Part shown: one piece after another, positions 8,633 through 41,920 of the stretch | Numbering within the stretch: position 1 is the stretch's first letter | How the letters are laid out: every line of letters starts with the position of its first letter | Notes under the pieces: model-generated | What the model was told of the DNA's origin: nothing | Seen by the model: the letters and a program-made list of their open reading frames with translations, nothing else | The model's database searches: none | Position numbers and translations under genes: made by a program | Source of the DNA: an uncultured Gammaproteobacteria bacterium | Lineage (GTDB): Bacteria > Pseudomonadota > Gammaproteobacteria > Arenicellales > JAANXG01 | DNA: 64,000 nucleotides | Assembly (NCBI GenBank): GCA_947258975.1 | Contig: CAMYKK010000006.1 | Location: forward strand, 1 to 64,000 | Direction of reading: 5' to 3'

Positions 8633-10258
8633 TTAAGCCACCAGCATTCCCATCCGCGCCAGGGACTGCAACGCCTGGCCGACGAACTGCTCCAGATCCG
8701 CGTCTGAGGACGAAACCGCCGCGCCGCCTGGGCGTTGCAGCTTGAGATCGCTGGTTTGGATTGCATCACGCACGTGCGCCACCAGGGCCTCGTGATCCCG
8801 GTTCCCATCCAACACCGGCACCAGCTTCTGTGCTACCGGGCCGAGATTGACGTATTGATGCCTTGGCCCCACCACTGGGGTGCCGGCACCGGCTTGAAGG
8901 GCCGCCAAGGGATTGGCCTTGGGCCGATCCGAAATCTCGGTGACACACTCCGGGTCCCAAGTGCAAAGTGCCACCATCTTGGCGGTGAACGCCTGCAACA
9001 TGTCTGTTGCCAGGTTGTTCCGTGCCGAGGGGATCTGGTTGGAATTGGGACGCAGGTTGTCGGGCAGTCGGTCAAGGGCCTTCTGAAACAGGTCCTCAAA
9101 CGGCAGCGATCTTGGTCGTAAATCGTTGAGCACCAACAACGCGGCCTTGGTGATCGGCCGTGTGACACTCAATGTGCCACCGAACCGGGTGCGCACGTTG
9201 AGCTTTGTGTCCGGTGTGAACTTGATGTTGTCCGTCTGCGGTACGGAACTGATGGTGATGCGAAACAAGGTCATGTCATCTGCCGTGACTTTGCGCTTCA
9301 CCTCAACTGCATCGTGCACCAACAACGTTTGCCGAAACGGCCGATTGCGCAGGAAATCCATGTACTGTTCTTTGCGCACAATGTCGTCACTGATGCGGTC
9401 CAGAGTCTGGCGGGTATTTTCGCTGAATCCACGGGCCAGCATGGTGCCGAAATCCGCCTCGCCGAGGTAACGCAGCTGGTGTTCCCTGGCCCATTCCGCG
9501 AATTGATGGAAATACAAGGGGCGATTCTGTTCTTCGAGATGTTCGTGAAACAGATACGAGTCGGCCTGCCGGTTGAGTAAATCCAACTCGCGCTTCAACA
9601 CCATGCCATGGGGATTATCTTGTTGCGGAACGGAGTCGGACATGAACTTCAACAGCGCCCGGGCCTGGCGGATACGCATCTCGGGTTTTTCGAACTGAGC
9701 GACGTGATAGTTCATCATGTGCCGGATCATGCCGCGCATATGCCATCCGGGATACGTGTTGTAACTGATGTAGCCGACGCCGTTGGCAGCCAGGTTCTCG
9801 GAATAGATGGCCAAGATCCGTTTCTGCACGTCTTCAGGTACCCAGGAAAAAACGCCATGACAAAGGATGTAATCGAATTCGCCCCAGGACTTATCGATAT
9901 CCAAGATGCTGGCGTGCTTGAGCTCGATGTTGTTCAAAGACAACGCCGCCAGCGTTTGCTGTCCGTCCTCGATCTGCTTCTTGGAAAGATCTACGCCGAC
10001 AAACCGGCTGCCCGGTAACTGCGCCGCCATGGGAACAATGTTGCCGCCGGCCGCGCAGCCTAACTCCAACACCCGGCACTCAGTGACCGGCGCCGGTTTC
10101 ATGCCGAACAGCTGCGCCATCGTTGCCAAATGATCGGGGTGGGATTGGGGATACGGGTGGCTGCTGTACGGGACCACATCGTAACTGTATTGTTCTTCCG
10201 ACAGATCTTCTTGAGTGATCTCTGTGGCGTCTTCGATATTTGTCTGTTTGGAATTCAT
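8633..10258 (-). CDS. SAM-dependent methyltransferase with methyltransferase regulatory domain (PKMT-like)
   Basis: A 541-residue class I methyltransferase. The SAM-binding motif I VLELGCAAGGN is at about 64-74, motif II GVDLSKKQI about 20 residues later, and motif IV FDYILCHGVFSWVP near 130. The middle (about 210-330) is the methyltransferase regulatory domain that defines this family, followed by a winged-helix-like C-terminal region. Known relatives with this architecture include the Rickettsia protein-lysine methyltransferases that modify an outer-membrane autotransporter. That makes the adjacent giant surface protein a plausible substrate, which is inference. The start ATG at 10258 opens an acidic segment (MNSKQTNIEDATEITQEDL). 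The gene faces away from the sulfotransferase, across a repeat-filled gap. Confidence 0.8.
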   Translation of the reverse strand: MNSKQTNIEDATEITQEDLSEEQYSYDVVPYSSHPYPQSHPDHLATMAQLFGMKPAPVTECRVLELGCAAGGNIVPMAAQLPGSRFVGVDLSKKQIEDGQQTLAALSLNNIELKHASILDIDKSWGEFDYILCHGVFSWVPEDVQKRILAIYSENLAANGVGYISYNTYPGWHMRGMIRHMMNYHVAQFEKPEMRIRQARALLKFMSDSVPQQDNPHGMVLKRELDLLNRQADSYLFHEHLEEQNRPLYFHQFAEWAREHQLRYLGEADFGTMLARGFSENTRQTLDRISDDIVRKEQYMDFLRNRPFRQTLLVHDAVEVKRKVTADDMTLFRITISSVPQTDNIKFTPDTKLNVRTRFGGTLSVTRPITKAALLVLNDLRPRSLPFEDLFQKALDRLPDNLRPNSNQIPSARNNLATDMLQAFTAKMVALCTWDPECVTEISDRPKANPLAALQAGAGTPVVGPRHQYVNLGPVAQKLVPVLDGNRDHEALVAHVRDAIQTSDLKLQRPGGAAVSSSDADLEQFVGQALQSLARMGMLVA

Positions 10259-10430
10259 TGTGTCCTCAGGCCCAAGCGTGCGATAAAGGCGGTGATTGTG
10301 CTATCAGCGTGATTTCGGAGCAAGTCGTCGAATCCTTAAACCAGCACTCTTCTGACTCTGTGAGAATGGCTTTCTGAATATGGCTGTGTGGTAGTGGCTT
10401 TGCACTGTGGTAGTGGCTTGCTCCCCTGCT

Positions 10431-10576
10431 GTGCGGGGACAAGCCCCCTGCTATGCGGGGACAAGCCCCCTGCTATGCGGGGACAAGCCCCCTGCTATGC
10501 GGGGACAAGCCCCCTGCTATGCGGGGACAAAGCCCCCTGCTATGCGGGGACAAGCCCTCTGCTGCGCGAGGACGAG
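10431..10576. repeat. Tandem array of 22-bp hairpin units, copy 1
   Basis: Seven consecutive units with a 22-bp period (one is 23). Each contains a small hairpin CCCC-N8-GGGG followed by ACAAG. The first six have the CCCC/GGGG stem. The last changes to CCTC/GAGG, with both arms altered so pairing is kept. There are no unique spacers, so this is not a CRISPR. It belongs with the REP elements that follow. Confidence 0.9.
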
Positions 10577-10577
10577 A

Positions 10578-10728
10578 GCCACGATTCGTTATTCGAGCCT
10601 GGAAGGCTCTCCCACAATGTTGTTCGAGCCTGCAAGGCTCTGCCACAAGTAGAGAGCCATGACTCTAATTCTGTGGGAGCACCTTCCAGGTGCGATTCAA
10701 TAAGCGAGTCTAAAAGGCTCTCCCACAC
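10578..10728. repeat. Cluster of REP-like palindromes
   Basis: Four imperfect palindromes end in the shared tail CTCCCAC (or GTGGGAG when inverted): GAGCC-TGGA-AGGCTC near 10595, GAGCC-TGCA-AGGCTC near 10625, GAGCACCTTCCAGGTGC near 10676 in opposite orientation, and GAGTCTAAAAGGCTC near 10706. Neighbouring inverted copies form a BIME-like arrangement. The gap from the methyltransferase start to the sulfotransferase start (10259-10825) otherwise holds only promoter-length sequence on each side. Confidence 0.8.
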
Positions 10729-10825
10729 CTTATATTTTGATACTGTTTACCTTCGCGGTAATATCGCCGGTCTTTGGTGCCGACCGCAGCACCACACAGT
10801 CTTGCCTTTATGAGAGGATTTGCGC

Positions 10826-12952
10826 GTGACCGACACAGTGAAGAAGAAGGAACCCAGTACCCACCGAGACAAAGCGTCGAGCGCGGAAAGCGAGGACGCT
10901 TCACCGGGCGCCTCCACATCCGATGATCTGCTGAAGGTGAGCGGTGTGCCTCTGTACGGCAAGGCTGGACCGCGTCCCACCATGGGTAAGCCGCTGAGCG
11001 CCAAGACCCCCATGAACTGGGGCCAAGCCAAGGCGCCGGGTCAGCCGGGCATGCAAGGCCAACCCGGGATGAAGGGGCAGCCTCGCATGCAGGGGCAGCC
11101 GGGTATGAAAGGCCAGCCCGGAATGCAAGGCCAGCCGGGAATGAAGGGCCAGCCCGGGATGCAGGGTCAGCCGGGGATGCAAGGCCAGCCTCTACCGCAG
11201 GGCCAACCGGGGCCACAGGTGAACATGCAGGAGATCAATTACATGTTTGGTCAGGCGCAGCAGGCCCTGCAGCAAGGACAACGGCCAGCGGCGGAGAATA
11301 CCTGCCGCCAGATCCTGCAACTGGTACCCAATCATCTGGGTGCTTTGCGCATGTTGACCGCATTGCGGCGCGATGCGGGCGACCAGCAGACGGTCGGCAG
11401 CCTGATCAGTCAGGCGCTGCGCGCCCATCCCCACAACGATCAAGTATTGGTCGATGCCGCGCAGTTTTTAGAAAACACCGGACGGGTCGCGCGTGCCGAG
11501 CAAAACTACGCCCGCGCCGCGCGCATCAATCCGCGTAATTTCGACGCCCAGGTCGGGCTCGCGCGCATGGCACAACGCCACGGCAATTCGGTGGCCGCCG
11601 AACACCACTATCGCCAGGCCTACTACCTGCAACCCCGCGCGGCGTTCGTGGCTGCGAGTCTGGCGCAGGTGTTGAGTCAACTCAATCGCTTCGAGGAATC
11701 CGAACGGTTTTATCGCATCGCGGTGTCACTCAATCCCAAGGACGCCGGCGCATTGCTCAATTGGGCCAAGATGGAGGAAGGTCGCAATGACGTCGATCGC
11801 GCCAATGAGCTGCTGGAAATGGCCAGAAAGATGCAACCGGACTTCCCGCTGATCGGCATGACCGAGGCGCAGATCGCGCGCCGCAAGAAAGACTATAAGG
11901 CGGCGGTAGAATCATTGGACACGATCAAAGTCGATCGTCTGCGGCCCGGCATGCAGGCGGCTTACTGGTACGAGCGCGGTAACACCCTGGACAAGGCCAA
12001 GGAGTACGCCGACGCATTTGCCGCGTACGACAAGGCCAACGAAATCAATCGTGAGAAGTTGGGTATCCGCTACCGGGCCGAGCACGTGGAAGATCTCGCG
12101 AATCGCATCAAGACCTTTTTCACCAAGGAAATCGCGGCCAAGCTGCCGCGTGCGAAGGCGCGAGAGGAAGGCGGTATTCTGCCGATTTTCATCTGTGGGT
12201 TTACCCGCTCGGGAACCAGCCTGGTGGAGCAGATCCTCGGCAGCCATCCCGATATCGCGCCCGGGGACGAGTTGTTTTACATCGCCGAGATCGCGCAGAA
12301 CGCCCCCCAGTTGGTGCAAAGCCGGCAGCGCTACCCGGAATGCCTGGAAGAGTTGATCCAGCCGGATAAGCAACACCTGGTGCAGCGATTTCGTGATGAG
12401 TACCTCAGCCGTGTGCGCATGACCGCGATCCTCGAGCCGGGGGCGCGGCGTTTCACCGACAAGATGCCGATGAATGAATTCCACTTGGGACTCATTCATC
12501 TTGCGTTTCCCGATACCCACATCGTCCACATGGCGCGGCATCCACTGGACACAGTGCTTGCGAGCTATTTCATCGACGCGCGACATGGCCAGTTCTGTAC
12601 CTATGATCTGGAGACTGCGGCGCAGCACTACGCGACCTTGTCCGAGTTGGCCAAACATTATCTGCAATGCTTTCCGGAGATAAAGTACACCCGCGTGCGC
12701 TACGAGGATGTGGTGGCCGACAACAAGAAAGAAACGGAAAAGATGTTGGCGTTTCTCGACGAGCCCTGGGACGACGCGGTACTCGAGTATTACAAAACGA
12801 CGCGCACCCCGCGCACGCCGAGCTACGCCGACGTCAAACAAAAGATCTATTCCGATTCCACCTACCGCTACAAGAACTACCGCGAACATGTCGACAAGAT
12901 CCTGCCCATCCTGGAGCCTTATATAAAGGAGTTGGGTTACACCGTCGATTGA
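10826..12952 (+). CDS. TPR-repeat sulfotransferase with N-terminal collagen-like tract
   Basis: A cytoplasmic enzyme expected to transfer sulfate from PAPS to an acceptor. It has 708 residues. A charged Lys/Ser-rich N-terminus is followed by a Gly-X-Y collagen-like tract (72-131), about seven TPR-like helical pairs (roughly 132-430) and a sulfotransferase domain (about 450-705). The PAPS 5'-phosphosulfate loop is FICGFTRSGTSLVEQILGSHP, and the 3'-phosphate-binding region is HMARHPLDTVLASYF. No signal peptide is seen. GTG 10826 is preferred because GAGAGGA lies 8 bases upstream; TTG 10820 is too close to it. The domain resembles tyrosylprotein/TPR sulfotransferases more than small-molecule ones. 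It lies just upstream of the giant Tyr-rich protein and is bracketed by two 22-bp hairpin arrays. Confidence 0.85.
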   Translation: MTDTVKKKEPSTHRDKASSAESEDASPGASTSDDLLKVSGVPLYGKAGPRPTMGKPLSAKTPMNWGQAKAPGQPGMQGQPGMKGQPRMQGQPGMKGQPGMQGQPGMKGQPGMQGQPGMQGQPLPQGQPGPQVNMQEINYMFGQAQQALQQGQRPAAENTCRQILQLVPNHLGALRMLTALRRDAGDQQTVGSLISQALRAHPHNDQVLVDAAQFLENTGRVARAEQNYARAARINPRNFDAQVGLARMAQRHGNSVAAEHHYRQAYYLQPRAAFVAASLAQVLSQLNRFEESERFYRIAVSLNPKDAGALLNWAKMEEGRNDVDRANELLEMARKMQPDFPLIGMTEAQIARRKKDYKAAVESLDTIKVDRLRPGMQAAYWYERGNTLDKAKEYADAFAAYDKANEINREKLGIRYRAEHVEDLANRIKTFFTKEIAAKLPRAKAREEGGILPIFICGFTRSGTSLVEQILGSHPDIAPGDELFYIAEIAQNAPQLVQSRQRYPECLEELIQPDKQHLVQRFRDEYLSRVRMTAILEPGARRFTDKMPMNEFHLGLIHLAFPDTHIVHMARHPLDTVLASYFIDARHGQFCTYDLETAAQHYATLSELAKHYLQCFPEIKYTRVRYEDVVADNKKETEKMLAFLDEPWDDAVLEYYKTTRTPRTPSYADVKQKIYSDSTYRYKNYREHVDKILPILEPYIKELGYTVD
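11039..11218 (+). repeat. 18-bp tandem repeats encoding a collagen-like Gly-X-Y tract
   Basis: Ten in-frame 18-bp units encode GQPGM(Q/K) hexapeptides, so every third residue is glycine (GQP-GMQ-GQP-GMK). Two units are degenerate (GQPRMQ and GQPLPQ). The tract separates the short charged N-terminus from the TPR domain. Near-identical codons across units suggest slippage-driven copy-number change. Confidence 0.9.
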
Positions 12953-12965
12953 GTGGGATCGGCTT

Positions 12966-13128
12966 CCTCCCCTGCTATGCGGGGACAAGCCCCCTGCTAT
13001 GCGGGGACAAGCCCTCTGCTGCGCGAGGACAAGCCCTCTGCTGCGCGAGGACAAGCCCTCTGCTGCGCGAGGACAAGCCCTCTAGCCCTCTGCTGCGCGA
13101 GGACAAGCCCTCTGCTGCGCGAGGACGA
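12966..13128. repeat. Tandem array of 22-bp hairpin units, copy 2
   Basis: Seven units plus an 8-bp partial unit, in the same orientation and order as the array before the sulfotransferase gene. Two CCCC/GGGG units come first, then five CCTC/GAGG units. The array leads into the same downstream block (GAGAGCCACGATTC then a REP). Arrays 1 and 2 thus flank the sulfotransferase gene as direct repeats. Confidence 0.9.
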
Positions 13129-13144
13129 GAGCCACGATTCTTTA

Positions 13145-13201
13145 TTCGAGCCTGAAAGGCTCTCCCACAACTTTGTTCGAGACTGTGAGGCTCTCCCACA
13201 A
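13145..13201. repeat. Two REP-like palindromes
   Basis: GAGCCTGAAAGGCTC and GAGACTGTGAGGCTC, each followed by TCCCACA, repeat the motif seen near 10.6 kb. The second stem has one mismatch. Confidence 0.75.
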
Positions 13202-13205
13202 GAAA

Positions 13206-13818
13206 TCCATCTAGAGATACTTATATATAGAGTACGCATCGGCGCGCTGCGTGCGCTGTCCGCACCGCGGTTCCCGCTTCTCGATCTGGAATGCGCCCAT
13301 GGGCGCTGCGCCAGTCTGTTAACCTGTGGTTAAGCCAATGGTTTATGCAAACTAGATGGCATATTTTCTAGAAAATTACTGTGGATCGATGTGCCACCAA
13401 GGTGGCGACTAAGCTTCGAGTGCTGCATGTGCCGTTGAGTCGAGCAAATCGGGCCGCGATTTGCTCGGTTGACGCATACATGGGCAGACATTATGCTGCT
13501 CGTTATCGGACGGGGGGGAGCCAGTACCGATGCCCTCCTTGTCCGGATAATAAATGGTTCATTGCTCCAAAGGAGAACCAACAATTAGAACAACAACGAG
13601 GTGCACCAAGCGGGGAGCGTGTGTCTGCGCGTCGGGCAGCGCGGGCGGGATTCGTACAACCTCACATTATCACTTTGGGAACCTCCTTTTGTGGCAGCGG
13701 CATCATTTTGCCGCGAAGAAATCATCGCGCTTGAAAAGCGCTCCCGCTGGTTTGTCCTTGTGGGAGCGGCTTGTAGCCGCGATTCGTGTCACTGGCTCAT
13801 TCATGGGATGTCGGGTCT
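13206..13818 (+). promoter_or_regulatory. Upstream region of the giant gene with a TTAACC palindrome and a REP
   Basis: About 610 bases with no convincing gene. It contains a perfect palindrome TTAACC-tgt-GGTTAA (13319-13333), which could be an operator, in a locally AT-rich stretch. It also contains a REP element GTGGGAGCGGC-ttgta-GCCGCG at about 13761-13786, only 30 bases before the giant-gene start. No -35/-10 pair could be assigned with confidence. Confidence 0.4.
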
Positions 13819-16800
13819 ATGAATAGAAAGCAACGACGAGCGCAGCGCAAGGTGCAGCGCAAACAAAATGCTGCGATCAGTGCGTCGGGACTGGATTCAC
13901 AATCGTTGATGATTGCGCTGGAGCCGCGCTACATGTTCGACGGCGCGGCAGTGATCACCGTAGACGCCGGTGTAGACGCGCAGACCGATGATTCCCCGGT
14001 GGAGGCGCCGCCGGAGTTCGCAACGGAAGCGCCCGCCAACGATACCGACACCGCAACGGCCCCCGGACCCACCACCGACGAAACCACTCAGCAGCAAGAA
14101 GAACAACAACCGGTCGATGTCGTCGCGCAACCCGATGCACCGACCGATGATACGGCCACCGGCGCCGCGCAAACCGAAAGCGTGGACGCGGATGCTGAAG
14201 GCACCCCCGACACCTCGAGCGACGCGCAGGCCGCGGCCGATGATCAACTGATTGACGAGCAGGCTGACGCGGCCAACGAAACCGAAGACAGTGCCGCTGC
14301 CGACACCGACCCACTGGGCGATCAGCCGGCCGACGGCGCGGCGGCCGACGCAGCCGGCGAGGACACGCAGGCTGCGGACGACACCGCCGACAGTCGCAAC
14401 GATCAACAGACCAACAATAATTCCGGCGAACAGACCAGCGAGGCGGAAACCGAAACGACTACCGAGGACACTGGTCCGGACGCGCCGGTGTCCACCGGCG
14501 AGGCCGACGGTCCGGTGATCGTGTTTGTCGATCACCGGGTGCAGGACCACGAGACCCTGCTGGACGGCATCGTCGAACCCGGCGGCACCGACGCCAATGC
14601 GCCCGCCGCCGACGCGGCGGCGCCGAATGTGGATTCGGCTTCCGCGGGTGACGACGACCCGGCGGCGAGCACGGCTGACAGTGCCGACACCGAGAACGAC
14701 GCGGATAGCGAGGCCGATACTTCGGCGGTCAACCCGGCCCCGACCGATACCGACGCAACGTATCTTGCCTCGCAGGACCCGAACGTCATCGTGGTGATGA
14801 TCAACGAGGACGAAGATGGCGTCGATGTGATCAGCGACGTGCTCGCGGGTTACAACGGCGTGGCGGCGGTGCACGTGCTGGCGCATGGCGGCGGCGGCAA
14901 CGCACTGTTGGGCAAGACCAATCTCAATCGTACCAACCTCGACCAGTACGCCGAGCAGATCGGCGGTTGGGGCGATGCCTTGTCCGCCGACGGCGACATA
15001 CTTTTATACGGTTGCCTGACTGCGGAAGACCAGACCGGCGGCGTCGAGTTCGTCGACTCGCTCGCGGCACTGACCGGCGCCGACATCGCCGCGGCGACCG
15101 GCAAGGTCGGCGACGGCGCATGGGGGTTGGATTACCACACCGGTTCCATCGAAGCGCAGGTCATCGTCAGCGAGCCCGCCCAGGCGGCCTATGCGCACGC
15201 CCTGGCGACCTTTCAAGTCACGGTCGGCGGAGACGTGGTGGATGGTAATTTCACACCCGGTAACCTGACGCTGCGCGAAGCCATCATCAGAGCCAACGGC
15301 ACCCTGGGCGCTGACTTGGTGGAAATCGATGCCGCGAACACCGGCGCTACGATTACGTTGACGTCCGACGTAGGAGACCTCGCGGGACCGGCATATGGTT
15401 ATGGTGTCAATGCAAACCAATACTACGGCGACCTGGACATCACCGATGATCTCGACATCAAGGCGATCAACGGCAACGTCACCATCGATGCATCGGGATT
15501 GGCGCGGGCGGACCGTGTGTTCCATGTGTACTCGGGCGCGACGGTCAACATGTACGAGAACGGCGGCTCTGGTATCACGATCACCGGCGGTGACGTGACC
15601 GCCGGGAGCCCGGACACCGGTTCGCAATACGGGGGTGGTATCCTTAACGAGGGGACATTGACACTCGATGGGATAACCAAGAAGATCGGTGCTACGACCG
15701 TGACGACCGTGACGGGCAACCAGGCCACGTTCGGCGGTGGTATCTCGAATGACGGCGGCACCCTCTACGTCAATTACAGCACCATCGAGTACAACACCGC
15801 CGTGGTAGACGGCGGCGGTATCTTTGCCGACTCGGGCACCGTCAACATCGATTCGAACTCCAACCACGGTAACTACATCTTTCGTAACCAGGCCGGCGAC
15901 GACGGCGGCGGACTGTCTATCGGCTCGGCGGCGACGGTCACCATCGGCGACGGGACGGAGTTTCGTGACAATAAGGCCTCCGGCGACGGCGGCGGCATCT
16001 ACAATGCCGGCACCCTGAATATAGACGTCAACGACGGCGGCGTGTACACGGTAAGCGCAGTTGGAAACGTCGCCGTTAACGGCGGCGGCATTTACAACGC
16101 AGGCACGCTCGACATATACGCCCACGGCGATACGGGCGCCGCCGGCGTCATACTCGAGGACAATGTGGCCACGGGTAACGGTGGTGACATCGCCAACAGC
16201 GGCGATCTGTATCTCGAGACCTACGCGGAAAACTACCAGGCCCGCATCACGATCTGGGGCAGTGACGCCGGCATGAACGGTGGCGGTATTTGGAATTCCG
16301 GTTACACCCGGATCCTCTCTCATGGCGACGGCGCAAAGGCCGATGTGGCCGTCGGCTTAGCGACGCATGAAGCGGTCAACGGCGCCGGCCTGTACAACAC
16401 CGCGGCCGGCACCGTGGAAATCTACGCCATTGGCGACAACTACGACGGTACTGTCCGTTTCCTGAACAACAAAGCCAGCAATGACGGCGGCGGTATCTGG
16501 AACGCGGGCACGCTCAATGTCAATGTCGGCTACTACAACGGGAACTACTATAACTATGGCCGGTTTGAGGTTGAGAACAACACCGCGGGCAACGACGGCG
16601 GCGGTATCCATAATTACGGCGGTGTTGTCACGCTCAATGGCGGCCCATCCGGCTATCTCTATGTGTCCGACAACACCGCCACGGTTGACGGCGGCGGCAT
16701 TTGGACCGGCGCCGGCGGCACGCTTAACGTATTGGACAGCACCATCGAGAACAACACCGCCACGGTTGACGGCGGCGGCATCTTCGCCGACTCGGGCACC

Positions 16801-25800: not shown

Positions 25801-27447
25801 CACGCGGGTACCACCACGGCGTCGATCATAGATAGTCCGTTCACGGACAACCTAGCGTATGTATATGAGGTGTATGGCGCCGCGACCAGTATTTACGGTG
25901 ATGGTGCCGGCACTGCGTATACGGTATCGGTGGCATCGGTGGATCTGACCACGGGTGTGACCGGCGGCGGGGTGCGCACCGCGGCCAACGATGTCACCGT
26001 GGGTGAGGCGCGCTACGACGCCAAGCTGAAAACCTATACCGGCTACGGCAGTCCGTTTACCGGCAACCAGGCGCACGTGGGCAGTGTGTACTATGGTGCC
26101 GGCGGAGTGTACGGCACGGCTGTGGGTCATAACTCCGCTGTGACCGAGACCACCTATGCCTATGGCGGTGGGTTGGATCAGGGCAAGGCGCCGGCGGCGG
26201 CGAGCTTGTCGCTTATATCCAGTCCGTTCACGAACAACCTGGCTTACGTGTACGACGTGTATGGCGCGGCGACCAGCGGCATCGGATTTGCCGGCACCGG
26301 TTATGCGTTGGCCACGGCGAAGGTATTGCAGGACACCTATGCCTATGGCGGCGGAGTGCGCACGCCGGCGGCATCGCTGGTGATCGGCGCGAAGTACCCG
26401 GCGGCATCGCTGGTGATCGGCGCGAAGTACGGCACGGCGGCGACGGGGTATTACTACGGTGGCAGCGCCTTTAGCGGCAACCGGGCATTTATTGGCAGCG
26501 CTTTTTATTTAGCCGGTGGGGTGAGCGGCACGGCCACCGGTTACGGCGCCGATGTGACGGGCACGGCGCTGGCGGCGGGCGGTGGTGTGGACCAGTCGGG
26601 GACCACGACGGCGTCGATCCTGTCCAGTCCGTTCACGTACAACTATGCGTATGTGTACGATGTGTACGGCGGGGCGTTCAGTGCTTACGGCGATGCGGCC
26701 GGTAAGCCCTATCCCGATTCGGTGGCGTCGGTGGATCTGACCACCGGGGCGGCCGGGGGCGGGGTGCGCACCGCGGCGAACGATGTGGGCGTGGGCGCGC
26801 TGTATGGCGCCCCGGTCTATGGATACAGCTATTTCGGCAGCCCGTTCAGTTACAACCGCGCGTTTGTGGGCAGCTATGCTCGTCGGGCCGGCGGTGGGGT
26901 GTACGGTACGGCGCTGGGTTATGACGCCGATGTGACCGAGACCACCTATGCCTATGGCGGCGGGTTGGATCAGGGCCCGGCGCCGGCGGCTTCGAGCCTG
27001 TCGCTGGTTGCCAGTCCGTTCACCTACAACTCGGCGTATGTGTACGACGTGTATGGCGCGGCGACCAGCGGCATTGGTTTTGCCGGCACCGGTTATGCGT
27101 TAGCCACGGCGAATGTGTTGCAGGACACCTATGCCTATGGCGGCGGGGTGCGCACGCCGGCCGAGATGCTGGTGATCGGCGCGAAGTACGGCGCGGCGGC
27201 GACGGGGTATTACTACGGTGGCAGCGCCTTTAGCGGCAACCGGGCGTTTATTGGCAGCGCTTACTATCTTGCCGGCGGGGTATATGGCACGGGATGTGAC
27301 GGGCACGGCGCTGGCGGCCGGCGGCGGTGTGGACCAGTCGGGGACCACGACGGCGTCGATCCTGTCCAGTCCGTTCACGTACAACTATGCGTATGTGTAC
27401 GACGTGTACGGCGGGGCGTTCAGTGCTTACGGCGATGCGGCCGGTAA
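13819..27447 (+). CDS. Giant LEPR/DUF4347 beta-helix repeat surface protein, part before frameshift
   Basis: This frame encodes 4,542 residues of a giant, probably secreted or surface protein. ATG 13819 opens the basic MNRKQRRAQRK; no Sec signal is present. The LEPRYMFDGAA motif (about 34-44) is followed by an acidic Asp/Ala/Thr linker (45-230) and a DUF4347 domain (about 230-465, with VHVLAHGGGG and ILLYGCLTAED). A CSLREA-like LREAIIRAN follows near 485. Then come right-handed beta-helix repeats built on GGGIYN motifs (to about 1600), a second LREAVIAAN near 1690, Ala/Tyr-rich repeats, about five 640-bp units (22.5-25.6 kb) and units of about 770 bp. RTX nonapeptides are not evident, and cysteine is almost absent. 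The reading frame breaks near 27290 and stops at 27447. The same frame reopens later, so the gene was probably longer. Likely role is adhesion or a surface coat, by family inference. Confidence 0.88.
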   Translation: MNRKQRRAQRKVQRKQNAAISASGLDSQSLMIALEPRYMFDGAAVITVDAGVDAQTDDSPVEAPPEFATEAPANDTDTATAPGPTTDETTQQQEEQQPVDVVAQPDAPTDDTATGAAQTESVDADAEGTPDTSSDAQAAADDQLIDEQADAANETEDSAAADTDPLGDQPADGAAADAAGEDTQAADDTADSRNDQQTNNNSGEQTSEAETETTTEDTGPDAPVSTGEADGPVIVFVDHRVQDHETLLDGIVEPGGTDANAPAADAAAPNVDSASAGDDDPAASTADSADTENDADSEADTSAVNPAPTDTDATYLASQDPNVIVVMINEDEDGVDVISDVLAGYNGVAAVHVLAHGGGGNALLGKTNLNRTNLDQYAEQIGGWGDALSADGDILLYGCLTAEDQTGGVEFVDSLAALTGADIAAATGKVGDGAWGLDYHTGSIEAQVIVSEPAQAAYAHALATFQVTVGGDVVDGNFTPGNLTLREAIIRANGTLGADLVEIDAANTGATITLTSDVGDLAGPAYGYGVNANQYYGDLDITDDLDIKAINGNVTIDASGLARADRVFHVYSGATVNMYENGGSGITITGGDVTAGSPDTGSQYGGGILNEGTLTLDGITKKIGATTVTTVTGNQATFGGGISNDGGTLYVNYSTIEYNTAVVDGGGIFADSGTVNIDSNSNHGNYIFRNQAGDDGGGLSIGSAATVTIGDGTEFRDNKASGDGGGIYNAGTLNIDVNDGGVYTVSAVGNVAVNGGGIYNAGTLDIYAHGDTGAAGVILEDNVATGNGGDIANSGDLYLETYAENYQARITIWGSDAGMNGGGIWNSGYTRILSHGDGAKADVAVGLATHEAVNGAGLYNTAAGTVEIYAIGDNYDGTVRFLNNKASNDGGGIWNAGTLNVNVGYYNGNYYNYGRFEVENNTAGNDGGGIHNYGGVVTLNGGPSGYLYVSDNTATVDGGGIWTGAGGTLNVLDSTIENNTATVDGGGIFADSGTVNIDPTYIKYNQANNDGGGLYIAAAATVNIDEGSYIYKNTADDHGGGIYNAGKLNINVNTGGTVSIDNNIADFKADNVGDGGGIHNAATGQFNASIKYGYVFVDDNTAFDGGGIWNAGTADIDSGDGITAPGNFYVDDNYATRDGGGVWNSGKFEVDTASDGSFYVQYNQASFDGGGVHNSGTFDVYADSGYVAVAKNFALVYGGGIYNIDGTVYLKGDASPPPFNNARVQYNEAYVSGGGIFSTGASAYVYLDNAAVYANEASYHGGGIYNYAGVVQINDSAISSNVAGYIYVDYGPSAPMAALVNGGAGGGIYNTGGGKVFIDPSVVSSNQAFIGNSGLPYAGSGGGIANIGADSILQVDKGFIYQNYAENNGGGIYNVQGSVFLSNQSFVGKNETQQHGGGVFSTGQYADVMLDNSYLGFNQARFNGGGVYNAAGSDLEVTNASRIYANIAGDKFNSYGKGPAVNAYHGGSGGGIFNDGVASQVLITDGSSIGKPSYGNLAVSGPVAAGPTYGGGFGGGIYNLYGGVSLKPGGIGGVRPDVVGNFAQYDGGGIWNRGNLDLGQTGFQSNVAGAKFAPALTSNANYGGYGGAIFNYKGDYTFAGRGFAKTGSAALSGGVYPYNNLANGGNVRPAPYTYTSPYYPANNYDFIYPYPQDTARIEVTTAFDIVDGNTSSFKSLLIDPGADGRISLREAVIAANNQSVDVYNNMPGGASTYTDYIAINLNEVAESLYYYTLGSGQFYGAYNTLYLSQKTALTVKNDPAATLDLAVYISDYDPVLLGGYLTNIYDTALIDGYANSGIFKLNPYTGIGLYDLTLYNGSATTNGGALYMSEYSYAVLDSVHVKDNTAAIDGGGIFADYGTRLFLTDDAAANNIFAGTLGRIAPLYSYSFPPATLTAGGVGYGTGVTKVSGNYAGNDGGGINLYGTAAYPTYLYAYEGTVIDGNTAGDDGGGVFASDDTYIYLIDDGVDDYKNVYVTDNAAYDDGGGIHTSGYLSAKDTTFSGNSANGATGDAAGGALFLTGSAYATISDSVFEANDANHTPGSGAASARGGAIYTASGYYAYPFGKITPGLVISNTDFYANIAYAKSVDDKATAHGGALHNSGVVDISESKFGDAGYYAKYPDLKGGYDYRYNGNLAKAVGPTFGYYKTTAAGGAIFNKAGGLVTRDPSPGYYNTAYAYGQKAYALGGDTANYGKVNGDNTYYKGNLAEAYGKRVKVAAPAFAYAYARGGAFFNAAGAYADIDSTDASKYGFTKNSAYAHTYVLAQSANSKGYATATGGGIHNAAGATLGDASKVGTAGTDGLTEIDFYANDTTAIVNTDTKGYKYGYAVAAAYGGGLYSGDTITGGLLYSAKVPFEFYNNLANANADSQVTGAVNVGYAYTKATGLGGGFHYAANAPLALYKLDFKDNTAQGYAYANSDANTAQANAVGIGRGGGLYHSTGDLTLTQGDFRNNYAKGLADTYTVAYIEAKANSYAYGQGGGVFHDGGTLTLDDADFFANSALIGGFANADANGDAFAYIYGLATGGGVHQGKGEVTVTDSTFQANTAEVYGKKAPILNAYANSGATAYADALGKAYGGGLYVTEAYIVAAGKGLYLDHNSDFYQNEANAYANSYAYGARQTGPTSKIYSGDAKAYADAYAGGGGVSVASGDVTLLGYDKYDFQTFTDNKAQSDAYAYVGPYYIYFKAKVPYGGYYYTNNGYAYADSKASGGAVEVRNGATDIDYGYFSDNEANAYGYARVNDTYLYAKSISNVVAAGGAVMQVAGTLDIDRSTVRENKAYAETKAYAESYSNFYGPPPTSADAYAGANGSAQGGGVWVGDIDLDLSYVYIQYNDAYATFEVRSYADYANAKAYADVDATGGGLHSGAGTLTLSDSTFSDNDAYAQNGYAKSRALDAATTKAVVDAIGGGVAHDGDGDITLTDSVFDANRARVEASYVYATAYAADAIADAEFTGTALGGGLYTQDGTLILDKGAGAGSPFTDNLASVSDTKVYAYANSAPGGTANARLYADAAGGGIDHGDDSHNTVAISDSYFDANLAKVTFSYAYAYTDNGSDPDTDQAYALVDADAAGGGLNLRHGGADAYMGTLSVTDSPFTDNNAYIYYTFADAYADAYAQANINAAARGGGIAHGDGEITLTDSKFDYNQATILVSYTGAYAYAAGATADTQFTGTALGGGLYTQDGTLTLSKDTGAGSPFTNNLAAVSDTNVYAYANSVEGGAADARLYADAAGGGIDHGDDSHNTVPISDSYFTGNQARVTYSYATADTYDGSDPDTDRAYALVDAYAAGGGLNLRHGGADADKGALLVTGSPFTGNQAYVDRTFAAAYADADADADIKAGAQGGGIAHGDGDLTLTDNAFDANSATVTYSYAGATAYAADAIADAQFTGTALGGGLYTKDGTLKLDMDTGAGSPFANNYASVSFGYVAAYANSAPGGTANATLHADAAGGGIDHGDSAYNTVSISDSGFNTNQAYVYNVIASADTKDGSDPDTDTATALVDAYAGGGGLHTNQGILTVTDSPFEFNDTYVASTLADAAADANANAQLLADTYGGGVAHHGDGSITLTDSAFTDNSAYVYMSKAYADAYATGAIADAEFKGTALGGGLYTQDGTLTLTKGATATGSPFSFNTAYANNNYVTANANSTPGGTADARLYADVAGGGFDHGDDSAKNTVSISDSAFKSNQAYVEFTYAYADTKDGSDPDTDTASALVDIYASGAGLNMQNGTLSITDSAFETNEMYVYYTQADAVSDANANAQLNVDMNGAGVAHQGTGDITLTDSAFYFNRVRLWNSYAYADAYAAAAIADAGFDGNAFGGGLYAADGALTVTSGKTGTGSPFSKNYVYIYYTYVQAYANSAPDGKAYAEILADVAGGGIDHGDGDVTITDSPFDDNKAFIYTVSAIADADLGPTASIADTQFGLTAYGGGVHTGGGALTLDDGAAGIGSAFTGNQALIGSAYYYYAGNYYYYGVSATATGYSAAVTGTAFAAGGGVDHAGTTTASIIDSPFTDNLAYVYEVYGAATSIYGDGAGTAYTVSVASVDLTTGVTGGGVRTAANDVTVGEARYDAKLKTYTGYGSPFTGNQAHVGSVYYGAGGVYGTAVGHNSAVTETTYAYGGGLDQGKAPAAASLSLISSPFTNNLAYVYDVYGAATSGIGFAGTGYALATAKVLQDTYAYGGGVRTPAASLVIGAKYPAASLVIGAKYGTAATGYYYGGSAFSGNRAFIGSAFYLAGGVSGTATGYGADVTGTALAAGGGVDQSGTTTASILSSPFTYNYAYVYDVYGGAFSAYGDAAGKPYPDSVASVDLTTGAAGGGVRTAANDVGVGALYGAPVYGYSYFGSPFSYNRAFVGSYARRAGGGVYGTALGYDADVTETTYAYGGGLDQGPAPAASSLSLVASPFTYNSAYVYDVYGAATSGIGFAGTGYALATANVLQDTYAYGGGVRTPAEMLVIGAKYGAAATGYYYGGSAFSGNRAFIGSAYYLAGGVYGTGCDGHGAGGRRRCGPVGDHDGVDPVQSVHVQLCVCVRRVRRGVQCLRRCGR
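22500..25620 (+). repeat. Five tandem ~640-bp coding repeats
   Basis: The block FTGTALGGGLYTQDGTL recurs at about 22675, 23325, 23975, 24610 and (diverged) 25245, giving a period of 634-650 bp (about 212-217 residues). Each unit holds three beta-helix sub-blocks: GGGLYTQDG, GGGIDHGD and GGGL/GGGIAHGDG. The first three copies are the most alike, and the last two increasingly divergent. Confidence 0.85.
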
Positions 27448-30280
27448 GCCCTATGCCGCATCGGTGGCGTCGGTGGATCTGACCACCGGGGCAATCGGTG
27501 GCGGGGCGCGCACCGCGGCGAACGAGGTGACGGTGGGCGCGCTGTATGGCGACACTACCTATGGGTACAGTTATTTCAGCAGCCCGTTTACCGGCAACCA
27601 GGCGTTTGTGGGCAGCGTCACTTATCTGGCCGGTGGGGTATACGGCACGGCGGTGGGTTATGACGCCGCTGTGACCGAGACCACCTATGCCTATGGCGGT
27701 GGGTTGGATCAGGGCAGCGCGCCGGCGGCGGCGCCTATGCCTATGGCGGTGGGTTGGATCAGGGCAGCGCGCCGGCGGCGGCGGGCCTGTCGCTGGTATC
27801 CAGCCCGATCACGAACAATCAGGCGTATGTGTACAACGTGTATGGCGCGGCGACCAGCGGCATCGGTTTCAAGGGCGCGGGTTATGGGTTGGCCACGGCG
27901 AACGTGCTGCAGGACACCAAGGCCTATGGCGGCGGGGTGCGCACGCCGGCGGCATCGCTGGTGATCGGCGCGAAGTACGGGTCGGCGGCGACGGGTTATT
28001 TCTACGGCGGCAGCGCGTTTAGCGGCAACCGGGCGCATATCGGCAGCGCGTATTATTTGGCCGGCGGCGTGAGTGGAGTGGCGACGGGTTACAGCGCCGA
28101 TGTGACCGGCACGGCGCTGGCGGCGGGCGGTGGTGTGGACCAGTCGGGGACCACCACCGCGTCGATCCTGTCCAGTCCGTTCACGTACAACTACGCGTAT
28201 GTGTTCGACGTGTACGGCGGGGCGTTCAGTGCCTACGGCGACGGTGCCGGCAAACCGTATCCCGGTTCGGTGGCGTCGGTGGATCTGACCACCGGGGCGG
28301 CCGGGGGCGGGGTGCGCACCGCGGCGAACGATGTGAGCGTGGGCGCACTGTATGGCGACCCGGTCTATGGATACGGGTATTTCGGCAGCCCGTTCAGCTA
28401 CAACCAGGCCTTCGTGGGCAGCATCTATGCTCGTCGGGCCGGCGGTGGGGTGTACGGTACGGCGTTGGGTTATGACGCCGATGTCACCGAGACCACCTAT
28501 GCCTACGGCGGTGGATTGGATCAGGGTAAGGCGCCGACGGCTTCGAGCTTGTCGTTGGTTGCCAGTCCGTTCACATACAACTCGGCGTATGTGTACAGCG
28601 TGTACGGTGCGGCGACCAGCGACACCGGTTATGCCGGGAAGGGTTATGGGTCGGCGACGGCGAACGTCGTGCAGGACACCCGGGCCTACGGCGGCGGGGT
28701 GCGCACGCCGGCCGAGATGCTGGTGATCGGTGCCAAGTACGGTACGGCGGCCACGAAGTATTTCTACGCCGGCAGTGCGTTTACCGGCAACCAGGCGTTT
28801 ATCGGCAGCGCTGTGCGTTATGCCGGCGGGGTGAGTGGCACGGCGGTTGGTTATAGCGCGGACGTGACCGGTACGGCGCTGGCGGCCGGCGGTGGCGTGG
28901 AACAGTCGGGCACCACGACCGCATCGATCCTGTCCAGTCCGTTCACGTTCAATGACGCGTATGTGTACAACGTCTATGGTGCGGCGTTTAGTGCTTACAG
29001 CTACGGCGCCGGCCTGGTATACGCGGCATCGGTGGCGTCGGTGGATCTGACCACGGGGGCGATCGGTGGCGGGGTGCGCACCGCGGCGAACGCGGTGACG
29101 GTGGGCGCGCTGTATGGCGATCCGGTCTACGGCTACGGATATTTCGGCAGCCCGTTCCGTTATAACCGGGCGTTCGTGGGTGGCACGTCGTATTTTGGGG
29201 CCGGCGGGGTATATGGTACGGCGTTGGGTTATGACGCCGATGTCACCGAGACCACCTATGCCTATGGCGGCGGTCTGGATCAGGACAAGGCGCCGGCGGC
29301 GACGAGTCTGTCGATCGTTTCCAGTCCGTTCTCGAACAATCTGACGTACGTCACCAGCGTCTACGGCGCGGCGACCAGCGGCATCGGTTTGGGCGGCGCA
29401 GGTTATCCGTTGGCGACTGCGAATGTGCTGCAGGACACCCGGGCCTATGGCGGCGGGGTGCGTACGCCCGCCGAGTCGCTGATGATCGGTGCGAAATATG
29501 GCACAGCGGCGACGGGTTATTTGTACGGCGGCAGCAGCATCTTCAGTTTTAACCGTGCCTTTATAGGCAGTATCGGAAAATACTTCGGCGGAACCGGGGT
29601 GAGCGGCACGGCGACGGGGTACGGCGCCGATGTGACCGGCACCGCGCTGGCGGCGGGCGGTGGTGTGGACCAGTCGGGGACCACCAGCCTGGCGGCGATC
29701 GGCAGCGCGTTCTACAACAACTATGCCTATGTCTACGACGTGTACGGCGGGGCGTTCAGCGCCTACGGCGACGGCGCCGGTAAGTCGTACCCCGGTTCGG
29801 TGGCGTTGGTGGATCTGACTACCGGGGCGGCCGGGGGCGGGGTGCGCACTGCGGCGAACGACGTGACGGTCGGTGTGCTGTATGGCGATCCGGTCTATGG
29901 GTACGGGTATTTCGGCAGCCCGTTCAGCTACAACGAGGCCTTCGTGGGCAGCACCTATTATCTGGCCGGTGGCGTGTACGGTACTGCGGTGGGTTATGAC
30001 GCGGATGTCACCGAGACCACCTATGCCTATGGCGGCGGCCTGGATCAAAGCACGGCGCCGGCGGCGGCGAGCCTGTCGCTGATCGCCAGTTCGTTCACAT
30101 ACAACTTCGCGTACGTGTACAACGTCGGCGGCACCGCGACCAGCGGCGCGGGCAACGGATATAACGGGGACACCGCGGATGTGACGCAGACCTCGCGGGC
30201 ATACGGCGGTGGTGTGAACACGCCGGCGCTGACCCTGACCGTCGGCAAGGTGTTCGGGACATTGGCGACGGGTTATTACT
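25620..30280 (+). repeat. Six tandem ~770-bp coding repeats
   Basis: TGTALAAGGGVDQSGTTT recurs near 25765 (diverged), 26565, 27298, 28105, 28873 and 29636, spaced about 735-808 bp. Long stretches are nearly identical in DNA, so expansion is recent. An exact 33-bp in-frame duplication (26365-26397 and 26398-26430, encoding PAASLVIGAKY twice) shows slippage inside one unit. The 17-bp loss and 50-bp duplication lie in this block. Confidence 0.88.
27290..27783 (+). pseudogene. Frame-shifted segment joining the two halves of the giant gene
   Basis: Compared with neighbouring repeat copies, 17 bases are missing at about 27290-27293 (after TATATGGCACG). The repeat protein then continues in the +2 frame (TGTALAAGGGVDQ... 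to GGGLDQGSAPAAA). At 27684-27783 a 50-bp unit is tandemly duplicated exactly (27684-27733 and 27734-27783), which returns translation to the original frame. The net change of +33 bases is in frame. Either two slippage mutations have occurred, the second compensating for the first, or both are assembly errors in repetitive DNA. Confidence 0.85.
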
Positions 30281-41685: not shown

Positions 41686-41920
41686 TGGTGGGAGCGGCTT
41701 TGAGCCGCGAAGCAATTGTCGCACCTGCAAGGTGCTCCCACAGGAGACAATAGAAGGAATCGCGCCTGGCTTATCTCCGCCTTGCCCCCGCACGGCAGGA
41801 GAGACAGCCGCTTTATTGCCTTTCTGCGAAAAACCCTTTCTGTAAGTGCGCCTTCCTGTGGGAGCGGCTTTCCCCTGCTGTGCGGGGACAAGTCCCCCGC
41901 TGTGCGGGGACAAGTCCTGC
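41686..41920. repeat. REP pair and short 22-bp hairpin array
   Basis: Two head-to-head REPs (GTGGGAGCGGC-tttga-GCCGCG and GCACC-tgca-AGGTGCTCCCAC, 41688-41742) are followed by another partial REP at about 41857. Two units of the same 22-bp hairpin repeat found at 10.4 and 13.0 kb run from 41873 to 41918. These fill the 335-base gap between the second TolC gene and the adaptor gene. No gene is seen in the rest of it. Confidence 0.8.

Follow-up and report, generated by a model that had tools for sequence, protein, structure and literature searches.

In the 64,000-nt stretch of DNA analysed here (the window), which forms the start of contig C6 of a 96%-complete draft genome (G000) of 5.49 Mb in 214 contigs, a sulfotransferase gene lies between two arrays of 22-bp repeats built from the same kinds of units. 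The locus raises the question of whether gene and arrays belong together, or whether the arrays arose by a process of their own. On balance, the arrays are probably tandem expansions of a non-autonomous 22-nt hairpin micro-repeat, which was copied into the loops of other hairpins (REPs) and then grew by slippage.

The arrays, the gene and its orthologue in a relative

Tandem Repeats Finder placed array 1 at 10423-10563 (period 22 bp, 6.4 copies, 96% match) and array 2 at 12972-13126 (period 22 bp). Read unit by unit, array 1 consists of six CCCC/GGGG units followed by one CCTC/GAGG unit, and array 2 of two CCCC/GGGG units followed by five CCTC/GAGG units, plus an 8-nt scrap. Both arrays have the same orientation and seven units, with the CCCC/GGGG stems ahead of the CCTC/GAGG stems, and their last units with the REP tail (119 nt; 10531-10649 and 13084-13202) are 90% identical, which confirms the two ordered arrays in direct orientation that the initial annotation had described around the gene. 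The short version that it had placed at 41.87 kb was found in part: array 3 comprises two CCCC units, with neither CCTC units nor the GAGAGCC tail, and is not the whole block. A search for further copies of the whole composite block returned partial matches only. All three arrays are located between main genes.

Table 1. Coordinates of the repeat and gene features in the window
Feature	Position	Strand	Basis or remark
Left half of host REP 1 (GTGGTAGTGGCTT + 2-nt loop)	10407..10421	+	sequence; 6 bp pairing with AGCCAC at 10577
Array 1: seven 22-nt hairpin units in the loop of REP 1; one extra base past unit 5	10422..10576	+	
Right half of host REP 1 (AGCCACGATTCG)	10577..10588	+	sequence and arm pairing
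Bare 23-nt REP, inverted (GTGGGAGAGCCTTCCAGGCTCGA); REPIN-like pair with REP 1	10593..10615	-	genome REP search
TPR-sulfotransferase gene, collagen-like N-terminal repeat	10820..12952	+	Sulfotransfer_3 E 7.9e-41; TPR; Collagen
Left half of host REP 2 (GTGGGATCGGCTT + 2-nt loop)	12953..12967	+	sequence
Array 2: seven units of 22 nt and a partial one of 8 nt (13078-13085)	12968..13129	+	
Right half of host REP 2 (AGCCACGATTC)	13130..13140	+	outer stem only 4 bp
Bare 23-nt REP, inverted	13146..13168	-	genome REP search
Bare 23-nt REP (GTGGGAGCGGCTTGTAGCCGCGA), no unit (empty host form)	13760..13782	+	genome REP search
Bare 23-nt REP	41688..41710	+	genome REP search
Array 3: two units behind GTGGGAGCGGCTT REP left half, intergenic gap	41871..41914	+	

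Array 1 is laid out as GTGGTAGTGGCTT-GC, seven units and AGCCACGATT, and array 2 as GTGGGATCGGCTT-CC, seven units and AGCCACGATT. Since an inverted bare REP follows each of them after a short spacer, as in a REPIN, each array is one half of a REPIN-like pair. The short outer stem of host REP 2 suggests that it is possibly a chimera with the REP 1 type, with CGGCT in the left half and AGCCAC in the right half.

The open reading frame between the arrays has 710 codons (start uncertain, TTG 10820 or GTG 10827) and encodes collagen-like, TPR and sulfotransferase domains. Its N-terminus contains collagen-like 18-nt repeats (GQPGMKGQPGMQ; 11038-11211) in about 8.5 copies, compared with about 21 in the orthologue of the related genome G001 (L009, 4820-5204). 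Further downstream (13786-37308), a 4553-codon reading frame ends at an apparent shifted frame at 27447 and a 3184-codon one opens at 27754. A perfect 50-bp tandem repeat (27684-27783) adjoins their junction, and the two may together encode a single giant protein, divided by a frameshift or an assembly error.

Among the six genomes of the genus (G000 to G005), the sulfotransferase orthologue was found only in G000 and G001, with 84-86% protein identity; the other four genomes have no orthologue and offer nothing closer than matches of 23-29% identity. The G001 gene is preceded by a REP-like stretch that holds one degenerate unit, and is followed by no array but by the same downstream neighbour, a related large reading frame. 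Since the only relative with the gene has it without the arrays, the arrays did not carry the gene, and a composite element bracketing it was rejected: flanking copies that move a gene, as in a composite transposon, were not seen in this one relative. Either the gene is older and the arrays expanded or inserted next to it afterwards, or they were lost in G001.

The upstream side is different. In G001, the upstream methyltransferase gene adjoins another sulfotransferase gene (C94, L157), a 44%-identical paralogue whose counterpart in G000 is on C62 (L156). Because the sulfotransferase neighbour of the methyltransferase gene differs between the two genomes, synteny is broken between 10330 and 10756, and array 1 lies within about 60-400 bp of the break. 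This fits a repeat-associated rearrangement, judged from one relative only.

It was also considered that the gene and its two flanking arrays make up a recombining unit, or one resembling a composite transposon, through which the gene is deleted, duplicated or moved, much as the initial annotation had suggested. The direct orientation, the 90% identical tails and the synteny break at array 1 agree with this, and so does the loss of DNA between two unit sites in copies of a MITE (see below), so that the recombination part of that suggestion retains some support from repeat-repeat exchange elsewhere. However, the repeat occurs at dozens of unrelated places without the gene, the G001 orthologue keeps its downstream neighbour without arrays, albeit in a single relative, and the empty site expected in related genomes, a single array without the gene, was not found among the genomes compared. 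A gene without paired arrays is close to the result that the initial annotation itself had named as contrary to its proposal. A joint unit of arrays and gene is thus improbable, and the arrays are probably passengers of the intergenic DNA, incidental to the sulfotransferase gene.

A dispersed 22-nt unit in the loops of REP hairpins

The unit is YCCCCTGCTNNGCGGGGACAAG; searched as CCCCTGCTNTGCGGGGACAAG with at most 2 mismatches, it matched at 98 places in G000, while the reversed pattern that served as control matched nowhere, an abundance far above chance. The exact form with NN is present in 5 of 60 related genomes (G000 included), all five within the genus, while it was absent from the 7 other members of the family and the 47 other members of the order. 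In the class, 1 of 369 genomes matched, which was G000 itself, with none among the 368 others. The exact counts in G000 to G005 were 57, 1, 124, 0, 41 and 71, in draft assemblies where several units lie at contig ends and array lengths may be mis-assembled. The unit is therefore dispersed and genus-specific. A viral origin was rejected, as viral contigs gave 0 matches, and so was a CRISPR array, as the units abut at period 22 with no unique spacers. Like a REP element, the unit is a short palindrome in many dispersed copies (the 98 matches above) and folds with a 4+2 bp stem; it carries no 5' tag of the GTAG/GTGG type. Units were also seen within another intergenic repeat of the GATTCTT...CTGCGCTCAGAATGAC type (L117, L066, L152).

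Many of the G000 units, including both arrays around the gene, sit in the apical loop of a REP hairpin of the form GTGGGAGCGGCTT-NN-AGCCGCGA. These host repeats have the GTGG tag, the short stem-loop and the high copy number of REP elements. A search of G000 with the REP pattern and a free loop of 0-30 nt returned 83 matches (control 0), and their lengths were bimodal: 70 measured 23 nt, one 24 nt, and nine 44-46 nt with exactly one unit, the remaining three (39, 40 and 46 nt) being REPs that overlap REPs. Filled REPs had GCGGCT, GTGGCT and GTGACA stems in the genome search, and also GCGCCT and GAGCCT among the fetched loci. Part of these loci were picked for holding units or matching an array, the G002 and G004 loci are among the matches listed, and most G005 loci come from DNA matches to a 20-kb stretch shared by the relatives, so that ratios of bare to filled copies there do not represent prevalences.

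Orientation was uniform. All 26 clusters with a REP left flank carry the unit in the same orientation and none is reversed; a direct search for inverted units in REPs yielded one weak candidate (L052). A test blind to the identity of the host found arms of at least 5 paired bases around 27 of 74 G000 clusters, where permuted flanks gave 9.8%; with a minimum of 6 bp, the figures were 18 of 74 and 4.5%. The 3' offset was 0-2 nt. In G002 (5/24, control 12.9%), G004 (4/14, 15.4%) and G005 (6/9, 61.9%), the result of this test did not clearly exceed the control.

In the listed loci L012, L049 and L072 of G000, the GAGCCT-stem REPs carry CCTC/GAGG units (3/3), and among the REP-flanked clusters of the fetched loci no single REP with a GCGGCT or GTGACA stem has such a unit. 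To judge by these sequences, guest and host stems seem linked.

Simple slipped-strand tandem repetition, in which nothing is copied from one locus to another, would explain why variants are locally uniform in each array (array 1 has TAT, the arrays of C9 and C15 have TGT). Slippage cannot, however, put the same 22 nt into the loops of unrelated hairpins at many loci; on this ground slippage alone was rejected. The dispersed single units largely refute it, and we regard it as very improbable indeed.

Other hosts: a MITE, a 24-nt hairpin and the unit itself

REPs are not the only hosts. In the 20-kb stretch common to the relatives (G002:C29, G005:C14, G004:C21, G000:C46), a MITE with inverted ends of the GCCCRTATATTGCACCAAGG type is flanked by TA on both sides. 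At site S4 it measures 250 nt in G005, and the site is bare in G002, G004 and G000; at site S2 it measures 395 nt in G002, and the site is bare in G000. The repeat thus shows terminal inverted repeats, TA on both sides and empty sites in relatives, the features of a TA-target MITE. Polymorphic MITE positions, with precisely empty counterparts in relatives, were noted in L178 (G005:C14, near contig position 8640-8881) and in L159 (G002:C29) at 12350-12745 and 13840-14149.

In the fetched loci, 43 MITE copies were recognised. Nine have a bare 19-nt core, typically GGGCGGCTGGA^CGCCGC, and others contain multiples of 22 nt in the core, a 24-nt hairpin, or both. The inner length is exactly 19+24a+22b in 22 of the 43 copies, compared with 8.7% of the integers in the range, and half of the lengths do not fit this rule. 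Some copies, including a G002/G005 pair, miss DNA between two unit sites, which suggests unit-unit recombination within the MITE. In G004, the 24-nt hairpin occurs in the opposite orientation (CACTGC..CAGCACAAG) in MITE copies of L141 and L151.

The unit was also found in its own loop, in LLRR and LLLRRR forms, where L and R are its halves. The triple nest is present in G000, inside a GTGACA REP, and in G001. Of 182 units, 16 have extra left and right halves, 16 a left half only, 4 a right half only and 146 neither; the halves co-occur (Fisher p 5.6e-11, a descriptive value, since copies are related and not independent), and extra left halves that lack a partner equal the matched nests in number. 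The 24-nt hairpin and the unit are each found in the loop of the other (LABR, ALRB, LALRBR). Many runs of L and R tokens are unbalanced, some through decayed halves and some truly, as in LLLLR. Quasipalindrome correction was rejected as a source of LLRR nesting, as complementarity between the L and R halves does not extend past the GGGG/GC core.

In summary of position, the unit is an exact addition of 22 nt, or a multiple of it, on the 3' side of the loop in hairpins that are unrelated to each other. These are REPs, with four or more different stems, two hairpins inside the TA-flanked MITE, and the unit's own loop. Bare copies exist of the REPs and MITEs that bear units, and no target duplication was seen at the additions. 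Since no orthologous REP that is bare in one genome and filled in another was found among the genomes compared, we infer movement of the 22-nt unit itself, as distinct from the MITE, by comparing copies.

Conversely, a long-loop REP could be ancestral, with bare REPs formed by precise loss of the inner hairpin and nothing inserted. REPs do fall almost only into two length classes, and the unit does extend the REP stem into one long hairpin. Loss, however, leaves aside the units in the MITE, in the 24-nt hairpin and in themselves, and bare REPs (70 of 23 nt) far outnumber filled ones (nine). Units and REPs also vary independently: REP counts in G000 to G005 are 83, 8, 1, 0, 2 and 2, so that units abound in G002 and G005 with only one and two REPs. 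Ancestral long loops are therefore unlikely, and insertion into loops is preferred.

Folding, a possible mechanism and known systems

The 192 unit-like sequences of the fetched loci comprise 141 with CCCC/GGGG stems, 25 with CCTC/GAGG and one with CCGC/GCGG. Fully paired non-CCCC stems number 26, against a mean of 4.3 in arm shuffles (0 of 2000 shuffles reached 26), nearly all being of one alternative pair type in copies that are not independent. The paired stem changes noted in the initial annotation are borne out by this count, and so is the predicted folding of the arrays: RNA folds of the two array regions were more stable than shuffles (z -3.6 and -2.9). The calculated folding energy is -7.3 kcal/mol for a bare REP, -13.2 kcal/mol for a filled one, which forms one long hairpin, and -21.5 kcal/mol for the triple nest.

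Paired arms and stable folds, together with the start of host REP 2 at the first base past the sulfotransferase stop codon, could mean that the arrays serve neighbouring genes as transcription or mRNA-stability hairpins kept by selection. Yet the arrays share no position relative to genes, array 1 being upstream of two divergent genes and array 2 downstream of one, and the scan found no terminator-like sites at the arrays. Rfam gave 0 matches within 10000-14000 of the window, and a known structured RNA was rejected on that basis. Matched arms can come from template switching as well as from selection, as template switching is described as able to fix stem pairing (PMC8794818); quasipalindrome correction is possible for the paired arm changes. 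A role of this kind is, in our estimate, quite unlikely.

Returning to copying into loops, the position, length and orientation of the units, their bare and filled copies and the presence or absence of the MITE at orthologous sites are read directly from the DNA; the steps that follow would account for them. The unit would be copied in trans into hairpin loops of single-stranded DNA on the lagging strand, by structure-directed insertion or by a template switch, possibly through an enzyme of the HUH/RAYT type. Local copies would then multiply by slippage, as period 22 and locally uniform variants suggest, while arm changes would stay matched through quasipalindrome template switching or selection. 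Finally, arrays may recombine together, whereby the left half of one host may join the right half of another. A bolder version, which we hold only as a tentative and rather doubtful one, is that the 22-nt hairpin is a transposable unit recognising structure and not sequence, which enters the apical loop of any extruded hairpin (REPs, MITE hairpins, itself) by precise copying at the 3' side and so builds nested palindromes.

Candidate enzymes were sought among the Y1_Tnp genes. Since these are present in all six genus genomes, including G003 with five of them and no exact unit, they do not track the unit. Few repeats lie beside the Y1 transposase genes, with no clear unit or REP cluster among them, and the RAYT link sought there was not found.

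Little is understood of the way in which short palindromic repeats spread through bacterial genomes. In the present case, the hosts and the guest belong to distinct hairpin families, of which both bare and filled copies exist, so that the sequence reveals where and how precisely insertion takes place. If loop-directed copying is real, composite repeat arrays could be explained with no role for the genes that they enclose, and hairpin-targeted insertion or template switching could be tested on a simple substrate. If the bolder version is true, a structure-recognising 22-nt hairpin would rank with the smallest known mobile units and would imply a novel activity that directs insertion into loops.

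Small dispersed repeats of Nostoc, the subject of work by Elhai in 2008, are reportedly very small hairpin repeats thought to be mobile.

Among better-documented systems, REP/REPIN clusters and insertions into existing REPINs have been described (Bertels and Rainey 2011, PMC3116915; Di Nocera 2013, PMC3733652). The hosts of the present unit resemble the REPs and REPINs associated with RAYT (TnpA-REP) in their 5' GTGG tag, 6-bp stem, short loop, inverted pairs and high copy number (PMC3116915, PMC3733652), whereas the 22-nt unit has no 5' GTRG tag, lies inside the REP loop, forms tandem arrays there and nests in itself. Insertion sequences also target REPs, namely ISPsy8 at the symmetry axis of the REP hairpin, IS1397 and IS621 (PMC1525189). 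The REP hairpin is a specific insertion target in both cases, but those elements carry genes, and ISPsy8 is accompanied by a 3-bp direct repeat, while the unit has 22 nt, no gene and no duplication seen.

Palindromes within palindromes are already known, in Volvox organelles and in a few bacterial REP dimers. In A. variabilis, T. roseum and H. neapolitanus, REP dimers are inserted within other palindromes (PMC3733652), so that one palindromic repeat is likewise enclosed by the arms of a second. In those genomes the REP acts as guest, whereas here it is the host, and the guest is found in hosts of several types and also within itself. In Volvox carteri, organelle palindromes are inserted into one another (PMC2670323), and short hairpins nested in hairpins similarly build large mosaics, but in organelle DNA with mostly AT-rich palindromes of variable length, in contrast with a GC-rich unit of fixed 22 nt at one loop position in a bacterial chromosome. 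A search of open-licence PMC papers found no prior report of fixed-length guest repeats nested in REP loops. What is new here is that a guest of fixed 22-nt length occupies one loop position in several host families, nests in itself and grows in tandem.
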